Part shown: in pieces, positions 23,211 to 60,330 of the stretch
Layout of the letters: each line of letters starts with the position of its first letter
Numbering within the stretch: position 1 is the first letter of the stretch
DNA from: Neoroseomonas soli
GTDB taxonomy: Bacteria > Pseudomonadota > Alphaproteobacteria > Acetobacterales > Acetobacteraceae
Length of the DNA stretch: 64,000 nucleotides
Direction: 5' to 3'
Assembly (NCBI RefSeq): GCF_018129065.1
Contig: NZ_JAAEDM010000019.1
Span: 1 to 64,000 of the forward strand
Program-made: the position numbers and the translations under genes
The notes under the pieces: generated by a model
What the model saw: only the letters and a program-made list of their open reading frames with translations
Databases searched by the model: none
Told to the model about the DNA's origin: nothing

Positions 23211-24179
23211 ATGAACGACATCACCCGCCGCGCGGCCCTCGGTGCCGCGCTGGCCACGCCATTCGTCCGCGGCGCCGCCGCGCAGGAACGCTTCCCCAAC
23301 AAGCCCATCACCGTCCTGGTGCCCTTCCCGGCGGGCGGGGCGACGGATGTGCAGATGCGCTCCCTCGCCGAGGCGGCGACCCGCGCCTTCGGCCAGACCG
23401 TGCTGGTGGAAAACCGGCCCGGCGCGGGCAGCACTCTTGGTGCCGCCGCCGTCGCGCGGGCGCGGCCGGATGGCTACATGGTGGCGCAGATGACGCTGCC
23501 GGCGCTGCGCCTGCCGCACATGCAGCGCATGCCCTATGACGTGACGAAGGATTTCACGCCGATCCTGCACCTGACCGGCTACCTCTTCACCGTCATCGTG
23601 CGCGCGGAGAGCCCCTACCGGACCTGGCAGGACCTGGTGGCCGATGCGCGCCGCCGCCCCGGCCAGGTGCGGCTCGGCAACACTGGCGCCAACGGCACGC
23701 CGCACCTCACGCTGGTGGATCTCGCGGAGCGCGAGCGCGTCGAAATCGTCCACGTGCCCTTCCGTGGGGAGGGCGACATGGTCCCCGCCCTGCTCGGCGG
23801 CCATATCGAGGGCGGCGCCGGCGGCTCCGGCGTCGGCCAGTTGGTGGACGAGGGCAAGCTGCGGATGCTGAACGTCTGGTCGCGCGAACGCTCCCCGCGC
23901 TGGCCGAACGTGCCGACGCTGATCGACCTCGGCTATGCCGGCATGTCCGTGACCTCGCCCTACGGGCTGGTGGCGCCGGCCGGCCTCGAGCCGGAGATCC
24001 GCCGCGCGCTGCATGACGGGTTCCGCACTGCGCTGTTCGACCCTGCGCATGTCGCGACGCTGCGCCGGCTCGACCAGCCGCTCGAATACCTCAACAGCGA
24101 GGACTACGCGCGCAACATGCTCGAAACCTACGCGATGGAGCGCCAGCGCGTGGAGCGCCTCGGCCTCAGGACGGGCTGA
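23211..24179 (+). CDS. Bug/TctC family substrate-binding protein (2)
   Basis: A 322-residue periplasmic Bug protein with a twin-arginine-like leader (DITRRAALGAALATPFV...AAA). It carries ITVLVPFPAGGATDVQM, VLVENRPGAGSTLGA and SPYGLVAPAGL. ATG 23211 follows GGGAGGA. It lies 30 nt after the acyl-CoA dehydrogenase, so its ligand probably feeds that pathway. It is a close paralogue of the protein at 27.9-28.9 kb. Its 3' end overlaps the convergent ligase gene by 14 bp. Confidence 0.94.
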   Translation: MNDITRRAALGAALATPFVRGAAAQERFPNKPITVLVPFPAGGATDVQMRSLAEAATRAFGQTVLVENRPGAGSTLGAAAVARARPDGYMVAQMTLPALRLPHMQRMPYDVTKDFTPILHLTGYLFTVIVRAESPYRTWQDLVADARRRPGQVRLGNTGANGTPHLTLVDLAERERVEIVHVPFRGEGDMVPALLGGHIEGGAGGSGVGQLVDEGKLRMLNVWSRERSPRWPNVPTLIDLGYAGMSVTSPYGLVAPAGLEPEIRRALHDGFRTALFDPAHVATLRRLDQPLEYLNSEDYARNMLETYAMERQRVERLGLRTG

Positions 24180-27883: not shown

Positions 27884-28855
27884 TCAGTTGATGCGAAGGT
27901 TGAGGCGCCGGATGATCGCGCCTTCCTCCTCGATCGTCTGCCGGACCGAGGCGACGTAGTCCGCGCTGTTCTTGTAGACCACCGGCATGTCGAAGCGTTC
28001 GAGCACGGCGAGATGCGCCGGGTCATGCAGCGCCGCCTTGAAGGCGTCGTGCAGCACCCGCACGATGCCGGGGTCGATGCCCTTCGGCCCCGCGAGGCCG
28101 TAGGGGGAGGCGGAGACGATGTTGATCCCGCTCTCCACCAGCGTTGGCACGTTGGGGTAGCGCTTGGCGCGCTCGGCGCCCCAGGTGACGAGCAGGCGGA
28201 ACTGCCCGCCATCCACCAGCGGCCCCCAGGATGTGGAATCCGCCATTGCCTGCGTCTGACCGCCGAGCAGCGACTGCGCATTGTCCGCGCCGCCACGGAA
28301 CGGCACGTGCAGGAACTCGATGCCCTTCTCGGCCGCGATGCGTTCCATGGTGATGTGCAGCGACGACCCGACGCCCGGCGAGCCATAGGCGACCTTGCCC
28401 GGGTTCGCCTTGGCGTGGTCGAGGAACTGCTGCCAGTTCTGCCAGGGGCTGTCCGCCTTCACCACCACGCCGAACAGGTAGCCGGTCAGGTGGATGATGT
28501 AGGAGAAATCCTTCAGCGGATCCCAGGTCGGCCGGCTGGTCATCATCGGGTAGCGGAAGGCGGTGATGGGCAGTTGGCCCACCAGGTAGCCGTCGCCGCG
28601 CGTCTCGGCCGCCATCATCTGCGCCCCGAGCGTGCCGGCGGCGCCGCCGCGGTTCTCGATGATCACCGGTTGGCCGAGATGGCGCGAGGCGACCTCCGCC
28701 AGTGCCCGCAATTGCCCGTCGGTGGACCCGCCCGGCGGCCAGGGGACGATCAGGCGGATGGAGCGGTTGGGAAAGCCGGCCTGTGCCACCGCGGGCGCCG
28801 CAAGCAGGGTGCCGCCGGCGGCCAGCAGGGCGCGGCGCGTCGTCGTGATCTTCAT
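27884..28855 (-). CDS. Bug/TctC family substrate-binding protein (3)
   Basis: A 323-residue periplasmic Bug protein with leader TTTRRALLAAGGTLLAAPAVA. It carries IRLIVPWPPGGSTDGQ, VIIENRGGAAGTLGA and SPYGLAGPKGIDPGI. ATG 28855 follows GGGAGGAAAC. It shares unusual stretches with the Bug protein at 23.2 kb (both have HLTGYLF and SPYGL followed by HDPAH/FDPAH), so the two are recent paralogues. It ends the thiolase/DUF35 operon, suggesting a transported acid that is thiolysed. Confidence 0.94.
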   Translation of the reverse strand: MKITTTRRALLAAGGTLLAAPAVAQAGFPNRSIRLIVPWPPGGSTDGQLRALAEVASRHLGQPVIIENRGGAAGTLGAQMMAAETRGDGYLVGQLPITAFRYPMMTSRPTWDPLKDFSYIIHLTGYLFGVVVKADSPWQNWQQFLDHAKANPGKVAYGSPGVGSSLHITMERIAAEKGIEFLHVPFRGGADNAQSLLGGQTQAMADSTSWGPLVDGGQFRLLVTWGAERAKRYPNVPTLVESGINIVSASPYGLAGPKGIDPGIVRVLHDAFKAALHDPAHLAVLERFDMPVVYKNSADYVASVRQTIEEEGAIIRRLNLRIN

Positions 28856-28922
28856 TCTTGTTTCCTCCCGAGGGAAATGGGGTGCCGGCCCCGCGGTCGT
28901 TGCCGCGGGGCCGGGGCGCGGC

Positions 28923-39751: not shown

Positions 39752-40717
39752 TCAGCCCTGGACGCTGAGGTTCAGCTCGGTCGCGATCGCCGTCCATTCG
39801 CGCAGGGAGCGGATGATGTCCTCGCGGAACTCGGCCGGACCAAGATAGGCGGGGATGGTGTCGATCTCGAGCAGCCGGCGCCTCGTGTCCGGGTTCTCCA
39901 TGATGCGGCGGAAGAGGCCGGAGGCGCGGTCCAGGATCGGCTGCGGCGTGCGCGCCGGCGCGAGAAGGCCGATGAAGCCGGAGAAGGCGAAGCGCCGAGA
40001 GAAGCCGCTGTCCTGCAACAGCGGCACCTCCGGCAGCGAGGGCAGCGGCCTCGTGCCCGAAAGCGCGAGCGGCCGGATGCGCCGCGCGCGGATTGCTCCG
40101 CCGCTCGCCGCCATGGAATGGAAGGCGCAGGCGACGTTGCCGGCCAGCATGTCCTGCAGCATCGGCCCTTCGCCGCGATAGGCGACATGGGTCATGTTCA
40201 GCCGCGCCTCGTCGGAGAACATCTGCCCATAGGCGTGCCCCGAGGAGCCCGGCGCATAGGAGCCGTAGGACAGGTCCTTCCCCCGCGCCCAGGCGACGAA
40301 GTCCTGCAGCGTGTCGCCCTGGGTGGAGGGCGAGGCACAGAGCACCAGCGGCGTGACGCCGAGCTTTCCGATCGGCGCGAAATCCGCGACCGGGTCGTAG
40401 GGAAAGCGCCGCAGCACCACCGGCGAGGTCACATGCGTCGTGATGGTGAACAGCATCGTGTAGCCGTCCGGCGTCGCGCGTGCGGCCGCCTCCGTGCCGA
40501 TCAGCCCGCCCGCCCCGCCGCGATTGTCGATGACGATGGGCTGGCCGAGTTCCGCCGACATCGGTTCGGCCATCAGGCGCGCCCAGAGGTCCGTCGAGCC
40601 GCCGGGCGGGAAGGGCACGATCCAGCGGACCGGGCGATCCGGCCACTGCCCCTGTGCCAGCGCCGGGCGCGCCAGCGCCACCCCGGCCGTGGCGACGAGA
40701 ACTTCCCTGCGATGCAT
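39752..40717 (-). CDS. Bug/TctC family substrate-binding protein (4)
   Basis: A 321-residue periplasmic Bug protein with a HRREVLVATAGVALARPALA leader. It has VRWIVPFPPGGSTDLWARL, PIVIDNRGGAGGLIG, SYGSYAPGSSGHAYGQMF and FSGFIGLLAPARTPQPILD. ATG 40717 follows AGGGAGGA; the long open frame upstream to 41143 runs into the porin gene and is an artefact. It has no adjacent transporter membrane genes. The porin 236 bp away could supply the outer-membrane path. Confidence 0.94.
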   Translation of the reverse strand: MHRREVLVATAGVALARPALAQGQWPDRPVRWIVPFPPGGSTDLWARLMAEPMSAELGQPIVIDNRGGAGGLIGTEAAARATPDGYTMLFTITTHVTSPVVLRRFPYDPVADFAPIGKLGVTPLVLCASPSTQGDTLQDFVAWARGKDLSYGSYAPGSSGHAYGQMFSDEARLNMTHVAYRGEGPMLQDMLAGNVACAFHSMAASGGAIRARRIRPLALSGTRPLPSLPEVPLLQDSGFSRRFAFSGFIGLLAPARTPQPILDRASGLFRRIMENPDTRRRLLEIDTIPAYLGPAEFREDIIRSLREWTAIATELNLSVQG

Positions 40718-43856: not shown

Positions 43857-44834
43857 TCATTCCACGCTGACGCCGGCGCGGCGCACCACCGGCTCCCAGC
43901 GCGCCGCATCCTCCGCGACGAAGCGCGCGAAGGCGGCCGGGCTCTCGCTCGGCTCCACGTCGAGGCCGCCTTCCTCGAGCTTCCGGCGGATCTCCGGGTC
44001 GGCGATGGTGGCCGATAGCGCGGCGAAGAGCCGATCGACGCGATCCCGCGGCGTGCCGCCGGTCGTGAGGAGCGCAAACCAAGTGGCCGCCTGGATGTCG
44101 GGGAAGCCGGCCTCGCCCGCCGTCGGCAGGTCGGGCATTGCCGCATTGCGCCGCGGCCCCGCGATGGCGAGCGCGCGCACCGTGCCGGCCTGGATCTGCG
44201 GCTGCAGGGGCGCGAGCGCATTGGTGAAGACCTGGATGCGCCCGGCCACCACGTCGTTCATCGCCGGGCCGGTGCCGCGATAGGGCACGTGCTGCATCTC
44301 CACACCGAGCACCTGCGTGATCAGCGCCCCCGCCGCATGCCCCGTGCTGCCGACGCCCGGCGATGCATAGTTCAGCGGCGGACTGGCCTCGCGCGCCGCG
44401 GCCTGCAACTCGCGCAGGTTGGTCGCGCGCACCGAGGGATGCACGACGATCACGTTCGCCCCGCTGCCGATCATGCCGACCGGTGCGAAGGCCGTCGCCG
44501 GGTCGTAGGGCAACCGCCGCCGCACGAGCTGGTTGATGGTCAGGCTGCCCGAACCGCCGAGCAGCAGCGTGTATCCGTCCGGCGCCGACTTCGCGACGAC
44601 CTCGGCGCCCAGCGCGCCGCCGGCGCCGCCGCGGTTCTCGATCACCACCGGCTGGCCGAGGCGCGCCGCCAGACCGTCCGATACGAGTCGCCCGACGATG
44701 TCGTTGGTGCCGCCGGGCGGCCAGGGGATCACGAAGCGCAGCGGGCGGTCGGGATAGGCCTGGGCCAGGGCAGGGACCGGAAGCGCCACGGCGAGCGCCA
44801 TCAGGCAACGCCGCATCAGGCGCGGGGTAGTCAT
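43857..44834 (-). CDS. Bug/TctC family substrate-binding protein (5)
   Basis: A 325-residue periplasmic Bug protein with a Sec-like leader LMRRCLMALAVALPVPALA. It has LRFVIPWPPGGTNDIVGRL, VVIENRGGAGGALGAEV, ASPGVGSTGHAAG and a C-terminal segment EDAARWEPVVRRAGVSVE. ATG 44834 is chosen because AGGAGGAC lies 7 nt upstream; an open frame continues to 45077 across repeats. It lies upstream of the ThDP enzyme on the same strand, 239 bp apart with no gene between, so its ligand may be the enzyme substrate. Confidence 0.94.
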   Translation of the reverse strand: MTTPRLMRRCLMALAVALPVPALAQAYPDRPLRFVIPWPPGGTNDIVGRLVSDGLAARLGQPVVIENRGGAGGALGAEVVAKSAPDGYTLLLGGSGSLTINQLVRRRLPYDPATAFAPVGMIGSGANVIVVHPSVRATNLRELQAAAREASPPLNYASPGVGSTGHAAGALITQVLGVEMQHVPYRGTGPAMNDVVAGRIQVFTNALAPLQPQIQAGTVRALAIAGPRRNAAMPDLPTAGEAGFPDIQAATWFALLTTGGTPRDRVDRLFAALSATIADPEIRRKLEEGGLDVEPSESPAAFARFVAEDAARWEPVVRRAGVSVE

Positions 44835-55212: not shown

Positions 55213-56079
55213 TTACGCGATCTGCAATCCCTGCAGCGATTCCTCCAGTTCCTGGAACGATGGCATATGCTCTGACGGCACCATCTTCCGACCTGTCTCC
55301 ACCGCCACCTGCGGGGCGTTGCCGTGCAGGTGCGCCACGAGCACGGCGCGGATCACCTCGAAGAACTTGCTCTCCTCCTCGACCACGCCTTTCAGCCGGG
55401 CGGCGAAGGGCCCCATCAGCCCGTAGGCCAGCAGCACGCCGAGGAAGGTCCCGACCAGCGCGCCGCCGATCATCCTGCCCAGCACCGCCGGCGGCTCGTT
55501 GATCGAGGCCATGGTCTTGATGACACCCATCACCGCCGCGACGATGCCGAGGGCCGGCAACGCATCCGCCATCGACTGCATGGCGTGGGAAGGGTGCATC
55601 TCCTCGTCCTTGATCTTCTTCAATTCCCTCGCCATCACGTCCTCGATCTGGTGCGGGTCGTCGGCGTTCATGCCGACCATGCGCAGGTAGTCGCAGATCA
55701 GCGCGACCGCGTGGTGGTCGGCGGCGATGCGCGGGAACTTGTTGAAGGCTGCGCTTTCCTCCGGCTTCTCGATATGCGGTTCGAGCGCCATCGGTCCCTT
55801 GGTCTGCGCCAGGCGAACCAGCCAGTAGAGCAGGCTCAGCAGGTCCATGTAGTCCTGCCGGGTGTACTTCGATCCCTTCAGCAGCTTCCCGAAGCCGGCG
55901 CCGACATGCTTCAGGCCGGCGACGCTGTTCGCCATGACCAGCGTGCCGATCGCGGCGCCACCGATGATCGCGAACTCGAACGGCAGCGCCGTGAGGATGA
56001 TGTCCAGCTTGCCGCCGGCGGCGATGTAGCCGCCGAAGACGCAGACCAGCAGGAAGCCGAAGCCGGCAAGCGAGATCAC
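55213..56079 (-). CDS. motA: Flagellar motor stator protein MotA
   Basis: A 288-residue MotA, the stator subunit that forms the proton channel with MotB and drives flagellar rotation. Four membrane helices are expected, including ISLAGFGFLLVCVFGGYIAA at the N-terminus and GALVGTFLGVLLAYGLMGP. DALPALGIVAAVMGVIKTM holds the conserved proline of the third helix, and the cytoplasmic loop is charged. The start is GTG 56079 with GGGAGG upstream; it overlaps the motB stop (GTGA), so translation is coupled. Length matches the family. Confidence 0.95.
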   Translation of the reverse strand: MISLAGFGFLLVCVFGGYIAAGGKLDIILTALPFEFAIIGGAAIGTLVMANSVAGLKHVGAGFGKLLKGSKYTRQDYMDLLSLLYWLVRLAQTKGPMALEPHIEKPEESAAFNKFPRIAADHHAVALICDYLRMVGMNADDPHQIEDVMARELKKIKDEEMHPSHAMQSMADALPALGIVAAVMGVIKTMASINEPPAVLGRMIGGALVGTFLGVLLAYGLMGPFAARLKGVVEEESKFFEVIRAVLVAHLHGNAPQVAVETGRKMVPSEHMPSFQELEESLQGLQIA

Positions 56080-57131
56080 GGGCGTTCCTCCCGCGCCTGG
56101 CGCAGCAGCGTGATGGAGACGCGGCGATTGGCCGCCGCATTGGGCTGGTCGGGCAGCAGCAGGTCGCGCTCGGCATGGCCGCTGACGCTGCGGACGCGCC
56201 CTTCGGCGAGCCCGGCCTCCACCAGCAGCCGTCGCGTGACGTTGGCGCGCTCGGCCGAGAGGTCCCAGTTGCTGCGGTCGCCGCTGCCGCGGAAGGGCGT
56301 GGCGTCGGTATGGCCGGCGATGGCGACAGGGTTCGGCAGGCGGGCTGCGGCCTGGGCCACGCGCGCCAGCAGCGCCCGCGCCCGGTCGTTCGGCGCCGTG
56401 CCGCCGAGGGCGAACATCGGCTGGCGCTCGGCATCGACCAGTTGGATGCGAAGCCCCTCGGGCGTCTGCTCCACCAGCATCTGGCGCGCGAGGTCGGCGA
56501 GGGCGGGGTCGGTGGCGACAGCCTCGCGGATCTGCTGGGCGACGTGTTCGAAGGCCTCGCGTTCGCGGTGCGCGAGTTCGCGGCGCAGTTCCGCCTCGCT
56601 GGCCGCCTCGGGGCGGGCTTCGGTGGCGGGCGCATCGGCCGGGCCTCCGCGCGGGGGCTCGGGGCCGGACTGGGCGCCGGGGGGCGTCGGCGCCACCAGG
56701 CGCGCGTCGTCCGCGTCCTCCCGGCCCTCGGGGCCCTCGCGGCGCGGCTGGGGGCGGGCCATGGTCTCGCTGTCGTCTTCCTCGATGTCCATCACCACGG
56801 GCATCCGCCCCGGCTGGATGGTGATGGCGCCCTGGGTCGAGGTGGAATTGCCGTCCTCGTTCGGAGTCCTTCCCCCGAAGGGCTGGCCGGAGCCGGAGAC
56901 CGATCGGGCCAGCAGGCTGGTCGGCGCGAAATAGTCCGCGAGGCCGCGGCGCTGTTCCTCGGTGGTGGCGTTCAGCAGCCACATCAGGAGGAAGAACGCC
57001 ATCATGGCGGTCACGAAATCGGCGTAGGCGACCTTCCACGCGCCGCCATGGTGGGTGTGCTCGCCGCCTTCCTCGCGCCTGATGACGATCGTGCCGCCGC
57101 CATCGCCCTTGCCCTTCGCCTTGCCTGCCAT
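56076..57131 (-). CDS. motB: Flagellar motor stator protein MotB
   Basis: A 351-residue MotB. After a short cytoplasmic tail comes AWKVAYADFVTAMMAFFLLM with the proton-carrying Asp38 and one membrane helix. A Pro/Glu-rich linker (about 100-190) precedes the OmpA-like peptidoglycan-binding domain with IAGHTDATPFRGSGDRSNWD and LSAERANVTRRLL. It anchors the stator to the cell wall. It is the first gene of the motB-motA pair. The linker is longer than in many homologues. Confidence 0.95.
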   Translation of the reverse strand: MAGKAKGKGDGGGTIVIRREEGGEHTHHGGAWKVAYADFVTAMMAFFLLMWLLNATTEEQRRGLADYFAPTSLLARSVSGSGQPFGGRTPNEDGNSTSTQGAITIQPGRMPVVMDIEEDDSETMARPQPRREGPEGREDADDARLVAPTPPGAQSGPEPPRGGPADAPATEARPEAASEAELRRELAHREREAFEHVAQQIREAVATDPALADLARQMLVEQTPEGLRIQLVDAERQPMFALGGTAPNDRARALLARVAQAAARLPNPVAIAGHTDATPFRGSGDRSNWDLSAERANVTRRLLVEAGLAEGRVRSVSGHAERDLLLPDQPNAAANRRVSITLLRQAREERP

Positions 57132-57209
57132 CGCGGGCAGGATGCCGCACGGGTGCTGACCACTTCGCTAACCGCGCCCTTTGCTGCCGCGTGACATGGG
57201 GCGGGCGCT

Positions 57210-58106
57210 ATGGTTTCGTCGGCAGCGATGGATCTGCCCGCCCACAGCCTTCCCGGAGCCACGGCCGCGCCGCCCTTCGCGCTCTACCACCCGGTGCGGC
57301 AGACGGTGCCGCTCGTCTTCGCGTCCCCCCATTCGGGGCAGGACTACCCGGCGGATTTCGTGGCCGAGGCCCGGCTTTCCCCGCTCGCGCTGCGCCGCAG
57401 CGAGGATTCCTTCGTGGACGAGCTCTTCGTCGCGGCGCCGGCGCATGGCGCCCCGCTGATCGCCGCGAACTTCCCCCGCGTCTGGTGCGACGTGAACAGG
57501 GAGCCATGGGAACTCGATCCCGGAATGTTCGACGGCCCGCTGCCGCCCTGGGTCAACACCACCAGTCCAAGGGTCGGGGCCGGGCTCGGCACCATTCCGC
57601 GTATCGTCGCGACAGGGGAGCCGGTCTATCGCCGCCGCCTCTCCTTCGCCGAGGCCGAGGCGCGCATCCGCGGCTACTGGGAACCCTATCACGCCGCCCT
57701 GGGGGAACTGATTGCCGGGACGCGGGCCCGCTTCGGCTTCTGCCTGCTGGTCGACTGCCATTCCATGCCGGCGCATCCGGCCCAGGCGGCCAATCCGCCG
57801 GACATGGTGCTCGGCGACGCCCACGGCACCGCCTGCGCCCCACGCGCAACCCGGCTGGTTGAGGAGGCTCTCGTCGGCCTCGGCTACCGCGTCCGGCGCA
57901 ACGATCCCTATGCCGGCGGCTACGTCACCCGGCATTACGGGCGGCCGCGCGACGGCGCCCATGCGCTGCAGATCGAGATCGCCCGGGCGCTCTACATGGA
58001 TGAGGGGCGGATCCAGCGGGGGCCGGGTTTCCGCGACGTGGTGGCGGACATGACGGCACTGATCGCCGCGCTGTCAGGATCGGACTGGGCCTTCCTCCGG
58101 CCTTGA
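57210..58106 (+). CDS. N-formylglutamate amidohydrolase
   Basis: A 298-residue zinc-dependent hydrolase of the N-formylglutamate amidohydrolase family. It has LVFASPHSGQDYPADFV, RRSEDSFVDELF, NFPRVWCDVNREPWELDP and LLVDCHSMPAHP, including the expected metal and catalytic His/Glu. The family converts N-formylglutamate to glutamate and formate in histidine degradation; no hut genes are nearby, so other formyl-amino acids are possible. ATG 57210 and ATG 57228 are both plausible starts. It diverges from motB. Confidence 0.9.
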   Translation: MVSSAAMDLPAHSLPGATAAPPFALYHPVRQTVPLVFASPHSGQDYPADFVAEARLSPLALRRSEDSFVDELFVAAPAHGAPLIAANFPRVWCDVNREPWELDPGMFDGPLPPWVNTTSPRVGAGLGTIPRIVATGEPVYRRRLSFAEAEARIRGYWEPYHAALGELIAGTRARFGFCLLVDCHSMPAHPAQAANPPDMVLGDAHGTACAPRATRLVEEALVGLGYRVRRNDPYAGGYVTRHYGRPRDGAHALQIEIARALYMDEGRIQRGPGFRDVVADMTALIAALSGSDWAFLRP

Positions 58107-58149
58107 TGCACCGCACAATGGCGGAGTAGAATTTTCTCCGAATGGGCGG

Positions 58150-58300
58150 AAAAAAAGAAGGCGGTGCCCGAAGGCACCGCCAAGTTTAGGGAGGAAACGT
58201 CCAAGAAAGACAGCGGTAGGCAACGCCTTGCCGCTGCGAGACAGAACTTAGGGGCCGTCATGAGGTTCTGCAAGAGGTTTTTTGCAGTGCAGCATAAGTG
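58150..58300 (-). ncRNA. Candidate small RNA with CCUCC motifs and UUCG terminator
   Basis: The minus strand ends in a textbook Rho-independent terminator: a 9-bp stem (58160-58168 with 58173-58181) with a TTCG tetraloop followed by TTCTTTTTTT (58159-58150). Upstream it carries CCTCCC (58194-58189) in an apparently open stretch, and a stem (58268-58273 with 58282-58287) whose loop is AAAACCTC. Loops with CCUCC are the signature of alphaproteobacterial anti-Shine-Dalgarno small RNAs. No credible protein is encoded here. The 5' end is a guess; no promoter was recognised. Confidence 0.5.
58160..58181 (-). terminator. Rho-independent terminator, minus strand
   Basis: Perfect arms GGCGGTGCC and GGCACCGCC around TTCG, then ten bases of which nine are T. 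It points left, 44 nt past the end of the plus-strand amidohydrolase gene, so it terminates a minus-strand transcript that starts within 58182-58360. Confidence 0.85.
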
Positions 58301-58308
58301 GCTTCCAG

Positions 58309-58328
58309 AAACATGTAAGCGCATGTTT
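58309..58328. promoter_or_regulatory. Inverted repeat upstream of lytic transglycosylase gene
   Basis: AAACATG (58309-58315) and CATGTTT (58322-58328) are perfect 7-bp arms around TAAGCG, 34 nt before the gene start and at the presumed upstream end of the small RNA. It may be an operator for either transcript. Confidence 0.4.
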
Positions 58329-58362
58329 ATTGCGTGGCACATGGCTTGCCGTTCACATCCCT

Positions 58363-59190
58363 ATGTCACGCCATGCATTCCGCTGCGCCGCGCTCCTCGG
58401 ACTCCTGCTGCCGGTCCTCGGGGCGCTCGCCTGCCCGGCCCGGGCGACACCTCTCCCGGCTGCCGATTCCGGCCAGGCCTGCCGCGCCGCCATCGCCCTC
58501 GCCGAGCGGGAGCAGGGCATCCCGGCCGGGTTGCTCCAGGCGATCGGCCGGGTCGAATCCGGCCGCCGCGACCCCGCGACCGGCCGCTTCGCCTCCTGGC
58601 CCTGGACCATCAACGCCGAGGGCCGCGGCATGTATTTCCCGACCCGGGAGGCAGCGATTGCCGAGGTGCGGCAATTGCAGGCCCGCGGCATGCGCCTGAT
58701 CGACGTGGGGTGCATGCAGGTGAACCTGCATCACCACCCCAATGCCTTCGCGACGCTCGAGGAGGCCTTCGATCCCCTGACCAACGCCCGCTACGCGGCG
58801 CGCTTCCTGGGTGAGCTTCAATCGACACGGCAGGACTGGGCGCGCGCCGCCGGCAACTACCACTCGAACACGCCCGAGCGCGCGGAGCCCTACCGCGCAA
58901 GGGTCGTGGCGGCGTGGGCGGAGGAACAGGGGCGGCCGGGCAGCGAGACGCCGGCTTTCGCGACGCTGGCCGGGGGGAGCCTTGCCGGGGCGGCCGGCCT
59001 CGCCAACGGGGGCGAGCGCGCCCGGGTCATTCCGCTGGCAGCAGCGGGCGGCACCGGGGGCGGGGCCGCCGCGCCGGGCCGCGGCCTCGATGCCTACCGG
59101 GCCGCGCCGATCATGATGGTGGGGCGGACGCCGGTCACCGCGCCCCTCGTTGCGCACATGCCGCTGGCGCTCCGCGCCCGCGGGCCGTGA
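58363..59190 (+). CDS. Lytic transglycosylase, SLT domain (secreted)
   Basis: A 275-residue protein with a signal peptide (FRCAALLGLLLPVLGALACP, cleavage near PARA-TPLPA). The SLT lysozyme-like domain follows: GIPAGLLQAIGRVESGRRDP with catalytic Glu (about 65), GCMQVNLHHHPNAF and AGNYHSNTPERAEPYRARV. A long Gly/Ala-rich C-terminal tail is low complexity. It cleaves peptidoglycan glycan strands. MotA and MotB lie 1.2 kb away, and alphaproteobacteria often use a separate SltF-like enzyme for flagellar assembly, so a flagellar role is plausible. ATG 58363 has no clear SD; a TTG frame extends to 58282. Confidence 0.9.
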   Translation: MSRHAFRCAALLGLLLPVLGALACPARATPLPAADSGQACRAAIALAEREQGIPAGLLQAIGRVESGRRDPATGRFASWPWTINAEGRGMYFPTREAAIAEVRQLQARGMRLIDVGCMQVNLHHHPNAFATLEEAFDPLTNARYAARFLGELQSTRQDWARAAGNYHSNTPERAEPYRARVVAAWAEEQGRPGSETPAFATLAGGSLAGAAGLANGGERARVIPLAAAGGTGGGAAAPGRGLDAYRAAPIMMVGRTPVTAPLVAHMPLALRARGP

Positions 59191-59196
59191 GGCGCG

Positions 59197-60330
59197 TCAG
59201 CCCCCGGCGAACTCGGCGCGGATCGCCGCGCTGTGCTGGCCGAGGGAGGGCACCGGCCCGAGGTCGCGGGCACCGTCCGACAGCACGGCGGCGGGCGCGC
59301 CGATGGCGATGGGGCCCTTCTCGGTCTCGACCGTCACGCGCCGCAGGGCGGGGTGGCGGCGGAGGCCCTCGCAGTCATTGACGAAGCCGAAGGCCGTGTT
59401 GGCCTTGCGGAGCTTCGCGGCGCATTCCTCGCGCTCCAGGGCGGCGAAGACGCGGGCGATATGCGCGTCCACCTCCGGGCGGTTGGCCACGCGCTCGTTG
59501 TTGACGCGGAATCCCTCCCTCGTGGGAAGCTCCGGCTCCTCGAGGAAATGCGTGCAGAAGGACGCCCATTCGCGCTCGTTCTGGATGGCGATCAGGACCG
59601 GCGTGCCGTCCATCGTCTCGAAGGCGCCGTAGGGGCAGATGGAGGGATGCGCGAGGCCGATGCGCGGCGGATTGCGGCCGGTGCCCTCGTATTGCAGCAG
59701 CGGCACGGACATCCAGTCCGCCATGCCGTCGAAGAGGGAGACCGCGATGCCCTTGCCCTTGCCGGTCATGCCGCGCTCGATCAGCGCCTCCAGCACGGCC
59801 GCATGCGCGTTCATGCCGCAGGCGATGTCGCAGGCGGAGACGCCGACGCGCCCCGGCCCTTCGGCCCGGCCGGTGACGTAGGCGAGGCCGCTTTCCGCCT
59901 GCACCAGCAGGTCGTAGGCCTTCATCGAGGCGTAGGGGCCTTCCTCGCCATAGCCGGAGATGTCCACGGTGATCAGCCGCGGGTTCTTCTCCCGCAGGGC
60001 TGCGCTGCCGAAGCCCGCGCGGGCCATGGCGCCGGGGGCCAGGTTCTGGATGAAGACGTCCGCCTTGCCGATCAGGCGTTCGAGCAGCGCCTTGTCGTCC
60101 GGGTTCTTGATGTCGAGGCAGAGGCTTTCCTTGCCGCGGTTCAGCCAGACGAAGTAGCTCGACTGCCCGTTCGCCACCGCGTCGTAGGCGCGGGCGAAGT
60201 CGCCTTCCGCGCGCTCGATCTTGATGACGCGCGCCCCGGCATCGGCGAGGCGGGAGGCGCAATAGGGCGCCGCGACGGCCTGTTCCATCGAGACGACGAG
60301 GAGGCCCTTCAGGGGCTTGGTTCCAGGCAT
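59197..60330 (-). CDS. CaiB/BaiF family CoA transferase
   Basis: A 377-residue class III CoA transferase. It has GLLVVSMEQAVAAPYCASRL and LADAGARVIKIERAEGDFAR, the catalytic Asp168 in VSACDIACGMNAHAAVLEAL, and RGMTGKGKGIAVSLFDGMAD with DWMSVPLLQY. It would move CoA between carboxylic acids such as succinyl-CoA and a substrate. ATG 60330 is the family start; the frame to 60447 is not supported. It is the last gene of an operon with HAD (gap 7 nt) and an acyl-CoA dehydrogenase. Confidence 0.93.
   Translation of the reverse strand: MPGTKPLKGLLVVSMEQAVAAPYCASRLADAGARVIKIERAEGDFARAYDAVANGQSSYFVWLNRGKESLCLDIKNPDDKALLERLIGKADVFIQNLAPGAMARAGFGSAALREKNPRLITVDISGYGEEGPYASMKAYDLLVQAESGLAYVTGRAEGPGRVGVSACDIACGMNAHAAVLEALIERGMTGKGKGIAVSLFDGMADWMSVPLLQYEGTGRNPPRIGLAHPSICPYGAFETMDGTPVLIAIQNEREWASFCTHFLEEPELPTREGFRVNNERVANRPEVDAHIARVFAALEREECAAKLRKANTAFGFVNDCEGLRRHPALRRVTVETEKGPIAIGAPAAVLSDGARDLGPVPSLGQHSAAIRAEFAGG

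Follow-up and report, generated by a model that had tools for sequence, protein, structure and literature searches.

What is encoded in the gap that separates, in Neoroseomonas soli, an N-formylglutamate amidohydrolase (FGase) gene from the gene for an SLT-domain protein, and what might the product of that gap be doing? The DNA considered here is the first 64,000 nucleotides of contig NZ_JAAEDM010000019.1 (assembly GCF_018129065.1), a stretch referred to below as the window. A preliminary description, made from the letters alone, had placed in the gap a small RNA (sRNA) of anti-Shine-Dalgarno type, i.e., one which would pair with ribosome-binding sites. The answer reached here is that the locus very probably encodes a trans-acting sRNA of the alphaR8 family, that is, the FGase-linked copy, one which would act in association with Hfq as an anti-Shine-Dalgarno repressor, with TctC genes as likeliest targets and with a promoter that probably responds to PhaR.

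Identity of the RNA

The alphaR8 RNAs are family RF00519 of Rfam (suhB, MmgR), including MmgR of Sinorhizobium and SisA through SisD of Caulobacter. A match to this family is found at 58145-58218 of the minus strand (65.8 bits versus a cut-off of 41, E 2.4e-11), one that covers the entire model, i.e., positions 1-77 of 77, and it is the only Rfam match in the whole window to reach its curated cut-off. Within the matched RNA is the 10-mer UUUCCUCCCU, and adjoining it is an FGase gene. In the published account, every alphaR8 RNA is said to share that 10-mer, with a place beside FGase being usual for the family (PMC12559287). Because match, 10-mer, and neighbor coincide, the locus is taken to be an alphaR8 RNA, the FGase-linked copy. 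The layout of an alphaproteobacterial anti-Shine-Dalgarno sRNA, as recognized in the preliminary description, is in this way given a family, though the RNA is then no longer a new candidate: It is instead, on its sequence, a previously undescribed member of a known family. The elements of the RNA, followed by the genes which flank it, are these:

58150-58237, minus strand: predicted alphaR8 (MmgR/SisA-type) small RNA of about 88 nt, from the RF00519 match, with its 5′ end placed from promoter and 5′ hairpin
58188-58197, minus strand: family 10-mer seed UUUCCUCCCU, mostly single-stranded, anti-Shine-Dalgarno, from the sequence (10-mer named in PMC12559287)
58210-58237, minus strand: 5′ hairpin of 11 pairs, from folding and covariation
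58160-58181, minus strand: intrinsic terminator hairpin, 9 bp with a UUCG loop, from a terminator search
58150-58159, minus strand: T-tract of the terminator, TTCTTTTTTT, from the sequence
57210-58106, plus strand: FGase gene (PF05013, E 2.5e-79)
58366-59190, plus strand: gene for the SLT-domain (transglycosylase-like) protein, on the other flank (PF01464, E 6.1e-6)

The stretch between the two protein genes is intergenic. It had been said to lack a protein gene on the minus strand, and this holds, as the two minus-strand reading frames that traverse the gap, 57992-58342 and 58074-58223, are mechanical, with neither constituting evidence of a gene.

Structure of the RNA

The 3′ end of the RNA is closed by a Rho-independent terminator, which is the left-facing structure (9-bp stem, UUCG loop, T-tract) that the preliminary description had reported and which is found again at 58181-58160 of the minus strand. 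Under strict settings, i.e., a perfect stem of at least 8 bp, a loop of 3-6, and at least 7 T in 10, this is the sole terminator in the window, and none is seen in 20 first-order Markov windows. Loose settings, as applied to 56500-60000, yield 2 terminators versus the 1.4 expected in shuffles. Folded as a 90-nt RNA, the sequence reaches -38.7 kcal/mol (z -4.75), which beats 200 of 200 shuffles. The seed motif is located in a linker separating two hairpins. Its CCUCCC, which is inside UUUCCUCCCU (58197-58188), is unpaired in a 73-nt fold. If 90 nt are folded, three bases of the 10-mer, including the first two C of CCUCCC, enter a weak 3-bp helix.

Covariation in relatives had been named beforehand as a check, and it is present in the 5′ hairpin. 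This was judged from an ungapped alignment of 16 genus copies, including the window's own, which represent 14 distinct rows and one part of the genus only. In that alignment, 97.4% of cells are paired and five of the 11 pairs have changed on both sides, with 0 of 500 shuffles as good; when the hairpin is slid along the alignment, pairing is seen in only 28 to 68% of cells. RNAalifold, applied to a 47-row MAFFT alignment, does not recover this hairpin, as there MAFFT gaps break it. A weak hairpin directly 5′ of the 10-mer appears as well if folding begins at 58222; if folding begins at the predicted start instead, one arm of this weak hairpin is taken up by the covarying 5′ hairpin.

Copies and distribution

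Three RF00519 matches are found in the N. soli genome: the window copy, a second at C39:12149-12226 (49 bits), and a third at C18:36134-36213 (35.9 bits, i.e., under the cut-off). The second adjoins a reading frame that we take, by eye, to resemble prolyl-tRNA synthetase, and the third adjoins one that presumably, again by eye, resembles cysteine synthase. The family is matched in 35 of 35 genus genomes and in 82 of 100 sampled genomes of the bacterial family (81 above cut-off), N. soli being included in both counts; as the family sample was scored with stricter filters, the number of absences in it may be too high. Of the 61 loci that were fetched by way of the family model, 60 have the exact 10-mer and one does not, namely N. 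soli's own third copy (L003), in which the last base has changed. A 37-base core is identical in named relatives including Neoroseomonas, Plastoroseomonas, and Roseomonas. Weak matches resembling the sub-cut-off third copy recur in many genus genomes, and in some relatives alphaR8 copies stand in tandem, about 170-270 nt apart (L006; L074 3-212; L095 24-256).

Promoter and PhaR-type box

The RNA is predicted to be transcribed leftward from its own promoter, starting near 58237 and ending with the terminator at 58181-58160; that is, it would not span up to 58300, as had been proposed. Upstream of this start are the following:

58245-58250, minus strand: predicted -10 element TAAGTT, from the sequence by eye and the aligned position in relatives
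58269-58274, minus strand: predicted -35 element CTTGCA, from the sequence, with CTTGC here in most of the relatives listed
58283-58291, minus strand: PhaR/AniA-type box TGCACTGCA (YGCRNYGCR), from a box search in 47 copies

Two CCUC(C) motifs had previously been ascribed to the RNA, one of them in a hairpin loop. The CCUCCC found inside UUUCCUCCCU does belong to the RNA, but the other motif does not. Of the CCTC strings lying upstream, one (58277-58274) abuts and overlaps the predicted -35 element and the other (58265-58262) is in the spacer between -35 and -10, and as so positioned both should lie outside of the RNA. The idea of a hairpin loop that exposes a second CCUC motif is rejected for this reason, with the upstream strings being predicted promoter DNA and the loop arising only when that DNA is folded as though it were RNA (150-nt fold).

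In Sinorhizobium, mmgR is repressed by PhaR (AniA), which in gel shifts binds to its promoter, with YGCRNYGCR as core of the reported motif (PMC12542648, PMC8401924). The equivalent box was searched for in 61 loci (L001-L061), each of which, except for L002 and L003, is the best match of its genome rather than all of that genome's matches. The strict box is present in all 47 of 47 FGase/SLT-linked copies, on the upstream side of the 10-mer and 85 to 111 nt from it (shuffles: mean 11, maximum 19), so that the PhaR site which MmgR-like function would call for is predicted in the promoter sequence of every one of these. It is present as well in 5 of the 14 loci without an FGase/SLT neighbor (shuffles: mean 2, maximum 7). 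Copies of the second-copy type (L002, L053, L054, L057, L058, L059) have the strict box in 0 of 6 cases, with the upstream sequence of L058 being short, and it was not found at either of N. soli's own further copies (L002, L003). The genome does possess a PhaR gene. Judged from the box, the promoter of the window copy is probably under PhaR control and, because it probably is, this RNA would rise in level as polyhydroxybutyrate (PHB) granules titrate PhaR, that is, as those granules take PhaR off of the DNA.

TctC genes as predicted targets

For an anti-Shine-Dalgarno RNA the mechanism would be as follows. The alphaR8 RNA, once expressed, would bind Hfq, for which an hfq gene is present in the genome, and would expose UUUCCUCCCU; this seed would then pair with G/A-rich ribosome-binding sites of mRNAs, blocking their translation. 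Expression, Hfq binding, and repression are all inferred here. In the related case of SisA, repression of mRNAs via seed pairing at ribosome-binding sites has been demonstrated by compensatory mutation (PMC12559287). In N. soli, the likeliest class of targets would be the TctC proteins, which are the solute-binding components of tripartite tricarboxylate transporters.

The full 10-mer complement, AGGGAGGAAA, is found four times in the genome, twice at an alphaR8 gene and twice at a ribosome-binding site, in one of these latter cases that of a TctC gene. The shorter, 8-mer complement GGGAGGAA is found 2-11 nt before ATG in 52 matches (49 distinct sites) versus 10 for the backward control. Thirty of these sites were fetched and 26 scanned with Pfam (four short frames being omitted), of which 11 precede TctC genes. 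Across the genus, matches to the 10-base complement are found in 32 of 35 genomes. Upon fetching one 10-base site in each of 30 genus genomes, 14 turn out to be TctC by Pfam, 1 a fragment with a similar start, 6 an alphaR8 gene, and 9 others; L121, L126, and L128 among these sites resemble a single ortholog group.

A comparison of leaders gives these sites a background. There are 144 TctC matches in the genome, and their leaders, taken as positions -22 to -3 relative to the called start, were compared with those of 600 non-TctC genes called in 761 kb, i.e., in a sample of about 13% of the genome plus the window. All starts are from this study's own callers, with those of the 144 TctC genes coming from a separate, earlier one. 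The background caller has a recall of 98.8% for TctC genes (97.6% for those held out of training), finding 82 where the sampled stretches hold 83. The result is that GGGAGGAA is present at the ribosome-binding site of 15 of 144 TctC genes versus 4 of 600 others (odds ratio 17, p 2e-8), or 10 of 82 versus 4 of 600 if only genes from the same caller are considered (p 2.5e-7). Among k-mers present in at least four TctC leaders, GGGAGGA shows the strongest enrichment of any 7-mer and GGGAGGAA of any 8-mer. Among 110 betaproteobacterial TctC genes, taken from three plasmids (two Variovorax, one Cupriavidus) and representing the mostly better-scoring of 220 matches, GGGAGGAA is present in none, with starts assigned by a simpler rule, freedom from alphaR8 assumed, and lineage differing as well. 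The leaders of those genes (L263-L372) favor AGGAGA, as seen in 35 of 110 versus 7 of 144 here, and this may be a separate, lineage-specific signal.

Alternative explanations

A different way of viewing these leaders is that the RNA is indeed alphaR8 but that the TctC signal is simply that of strong Shine-Dalgarno sequences serving ribosome binding, for which no sRNA would be necessary. We consider this to be unlikely, though it is an explanation to be taken seriously. GGAGG cores are in fact commoner in TctC leaders (55 of 144 versus 97 of 600), and the duplex energy with a 16S anti-Shine-Dalgarno string by itself separates TctC genes from others to some extent, with an area under the curve (AUC) of 0.605. 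Because TctC leaders are richer in GGAGG cores, the flanks of the seed were tested separately, and given such a core it is the sRNA that the flanks follow: GGGAGGAA is present in 15 of 55 TctC leaders versus 4 of 97 others, a G precedes the core in 30 of 55 versus 24 of 97, and cores without either seed flank are less common (11 of 55 versus 40 of 97). AGGAGG, CGGAGG, and AAGGAG are not significantly enriched in TctC leaders (p 0.2, 0.46, and 0.18). If the 82 TctC genes and the 600 others are ranked by the energy of their duplexes with the sRNA, the AUC is 0.706, which is reached by 0 of 100 flank-shuffled controls that keep CCUCC (maximum 0.615), controls which recreate UUCCUCC or CCUCCC having been left out. 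The TctC enrichment, that is, tracks the flanks of the sRNA rather than the 16S anti-Shine-Dalgarno.

Less probable still is that the RNA mainly limits PHB granules by way of phasins, as has been proposed for MmgR of Sinorhizobium, with TctC targets unimportant. Membership in the alphaR8 family is consistent with this, as too is promoter design: N. soli has two phasin genes, on C94 and C76, and the C94 promoter (L064 1100-1300) has box, -35, and -10 following one another as they do in the sRNA promoter, along with a second box nearer to the start codon. So also is the finding that, of the 18 of 100 sampled genomes lacking an alphaR8 match, PhaR is missing from 17 and PhaC likewise from 17, versus 6 and 11, respectively, of the 82 genomes with a match; this co-absence, however, is suggestive only, as the genomes sampled share ancestry. 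Against phasins is that duplexes with their two leaders, at -14.0 and -12.9 kcal/mol, are no better than background (about -14.5 to -14.9 on average), so that direct phasin repression as proposed for MmgR is unsupported here. Much more remote is that the gap holds a terminator accompanied by decayed or unexpressed sequence, or instead a small minus-strand coding gene. Reading frames do exist on that strand, i.e., the two already noted, but both run through the terminator, base pairs covary in the 5′ hairpin, and 60 of 61 loci found with the family model retain the 10-mer even as its distance from the box shifts by single bases. Scarcely credible, lastly, is an anti-Shine-Dalgarno sRNA of some other family, one with CCUCC motifs in loops. 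CCUCCC is present, but in the fold it is in the linker between hairpins rather than in a hairpin loop, and a permissive cmscan of 57900-58500 gives only RF00519 above cut-off, the three other families returned all being far under theirs (next by score is sbrA, at 22.6 bits versus 45).

Against an FGase-linked alphaR8 RNA that acts on TctC genes under PhaR control there nevertheless are several considerations to be weighed. The exact 8-mer GGGAGGAA is missing from 129 of the 144 TctC genes, and some non-TctC genes equal TctC genes in low duplex energy. TctC paralogs have common ancestry, though their spacers and signal peptides differ. The betaproteobacterial comparison is one of lineage and of start rule too, with absence of alphaR8 assumed. 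As the seed is also found in the two other copies, exactly in one and with its last base changed in the other, the window copy alone cannot be credited with the target signal. In addition, the C76 phasin gene is without a strict PhaR-type box in 287 nt, and the phasin leaders, as noted, pair no better than background.

Relation to known systems

SisA of Caulobacter crescentus resembles the RNA described here in its 10-mer, its terminator, its FGase linkage, and its several siblings per genome (PMC12559287). Its reported targets, however, are rich in TonB-dependent receptors along with other membrane transporters, versus the TctC genes predicted here, and its described hairpin is weak versus the strong 5′ hairpin of the N. 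soli RNA (PMC12559287). A control search of Caulobacter vibrioides yielded no TctC match. SisA furthermore is antagonized by a sponge, CrfA (PMC12559287), to which no counterpart was seen in N. soli in a search limited to perfect complements of the 10-mer: The four that occur are at an alphaR8 gene in two cases and at a ribosome-binding site in the other two. MmgR of Sinorhizobium meliloti is of the same family and, as here, its promoter possesses a PhaR/AniA site, but it is single copy versus the three copies of N. soli (PMC8401924, PMC12542648); its proposed role is via phasins, the leaders of which are not predicted to pair in N. soli. The AbcR sRNAs of Rhizobiales are alike in that one sRNA faces many transporter mRNAs, but they differ in family and act on ABC transporters rather than on TctC solute-binding proteins.

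To our knowledge, control of TctC synthesis is poorly understood in lineages possessing very large TctC sets. Such sets can be larger still, with expansion to 434 TctC-type genes reported in another alphaproteobacterium, Rhodoplanes (PMC5994714). A single seed that is common to many TctC leaders offers a testable answer to the question of when TctC proteins get made, and that control would be tied to carbon storage by the PhaR box of the sRNA promoter. Among the matches listed from the open-licence literature, we recognized no printed link of MmgR/SisA, or of sRNAs, to tripartite tricarboxylate genes, nor any functional sRNA study in Roseomonas or Acetobacteraceae; TctC as an alphaR8 target class is, within that same scope, a prediction not found in print. 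It would extend alphaR8 function, as hitherto studied in Sinorhizobium and Caulobacter, to the Acetobacteraceae, and to a target class besides phasins. A still wider scheme, one to which we would give somewhat less than even credence, is that in Roseomonas-type Acetobacteraceae the alphaR8 RNAs serve as a shared post-transcriptional brake on the expanded TctC set (144 genes here), with the FGase-linked copy coupling this brake, through PhaR, to carbon storage. PHB stores, when full, would draw PhaR from the promoter, alphaR8 would increase, and carboxylate scavenging would be shut down at the ribosome-binding site.

Candidate sites within the window

The window itself possesses an exact 8-mer site before a TctC gene:

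28862-28869, minus strand: predicted target site GGGAGGAA at the ribosome-binding site of the TctC gene at 27884-28855, from the sequence

Five TctC genes are found in the window, at 1770-2747, 23211-24179, 27884-28855, 39752-40717, and 43857-44834, and in four of the five the ribosome-binding site has GGGAGGA or GGAGGAA. GGGAGGAA also precedes the GTG start of a membrane protein gene at 55213-56079 of the minus strand, located beside a MotB-like gene and itself, by position and sequence, MotA-like.
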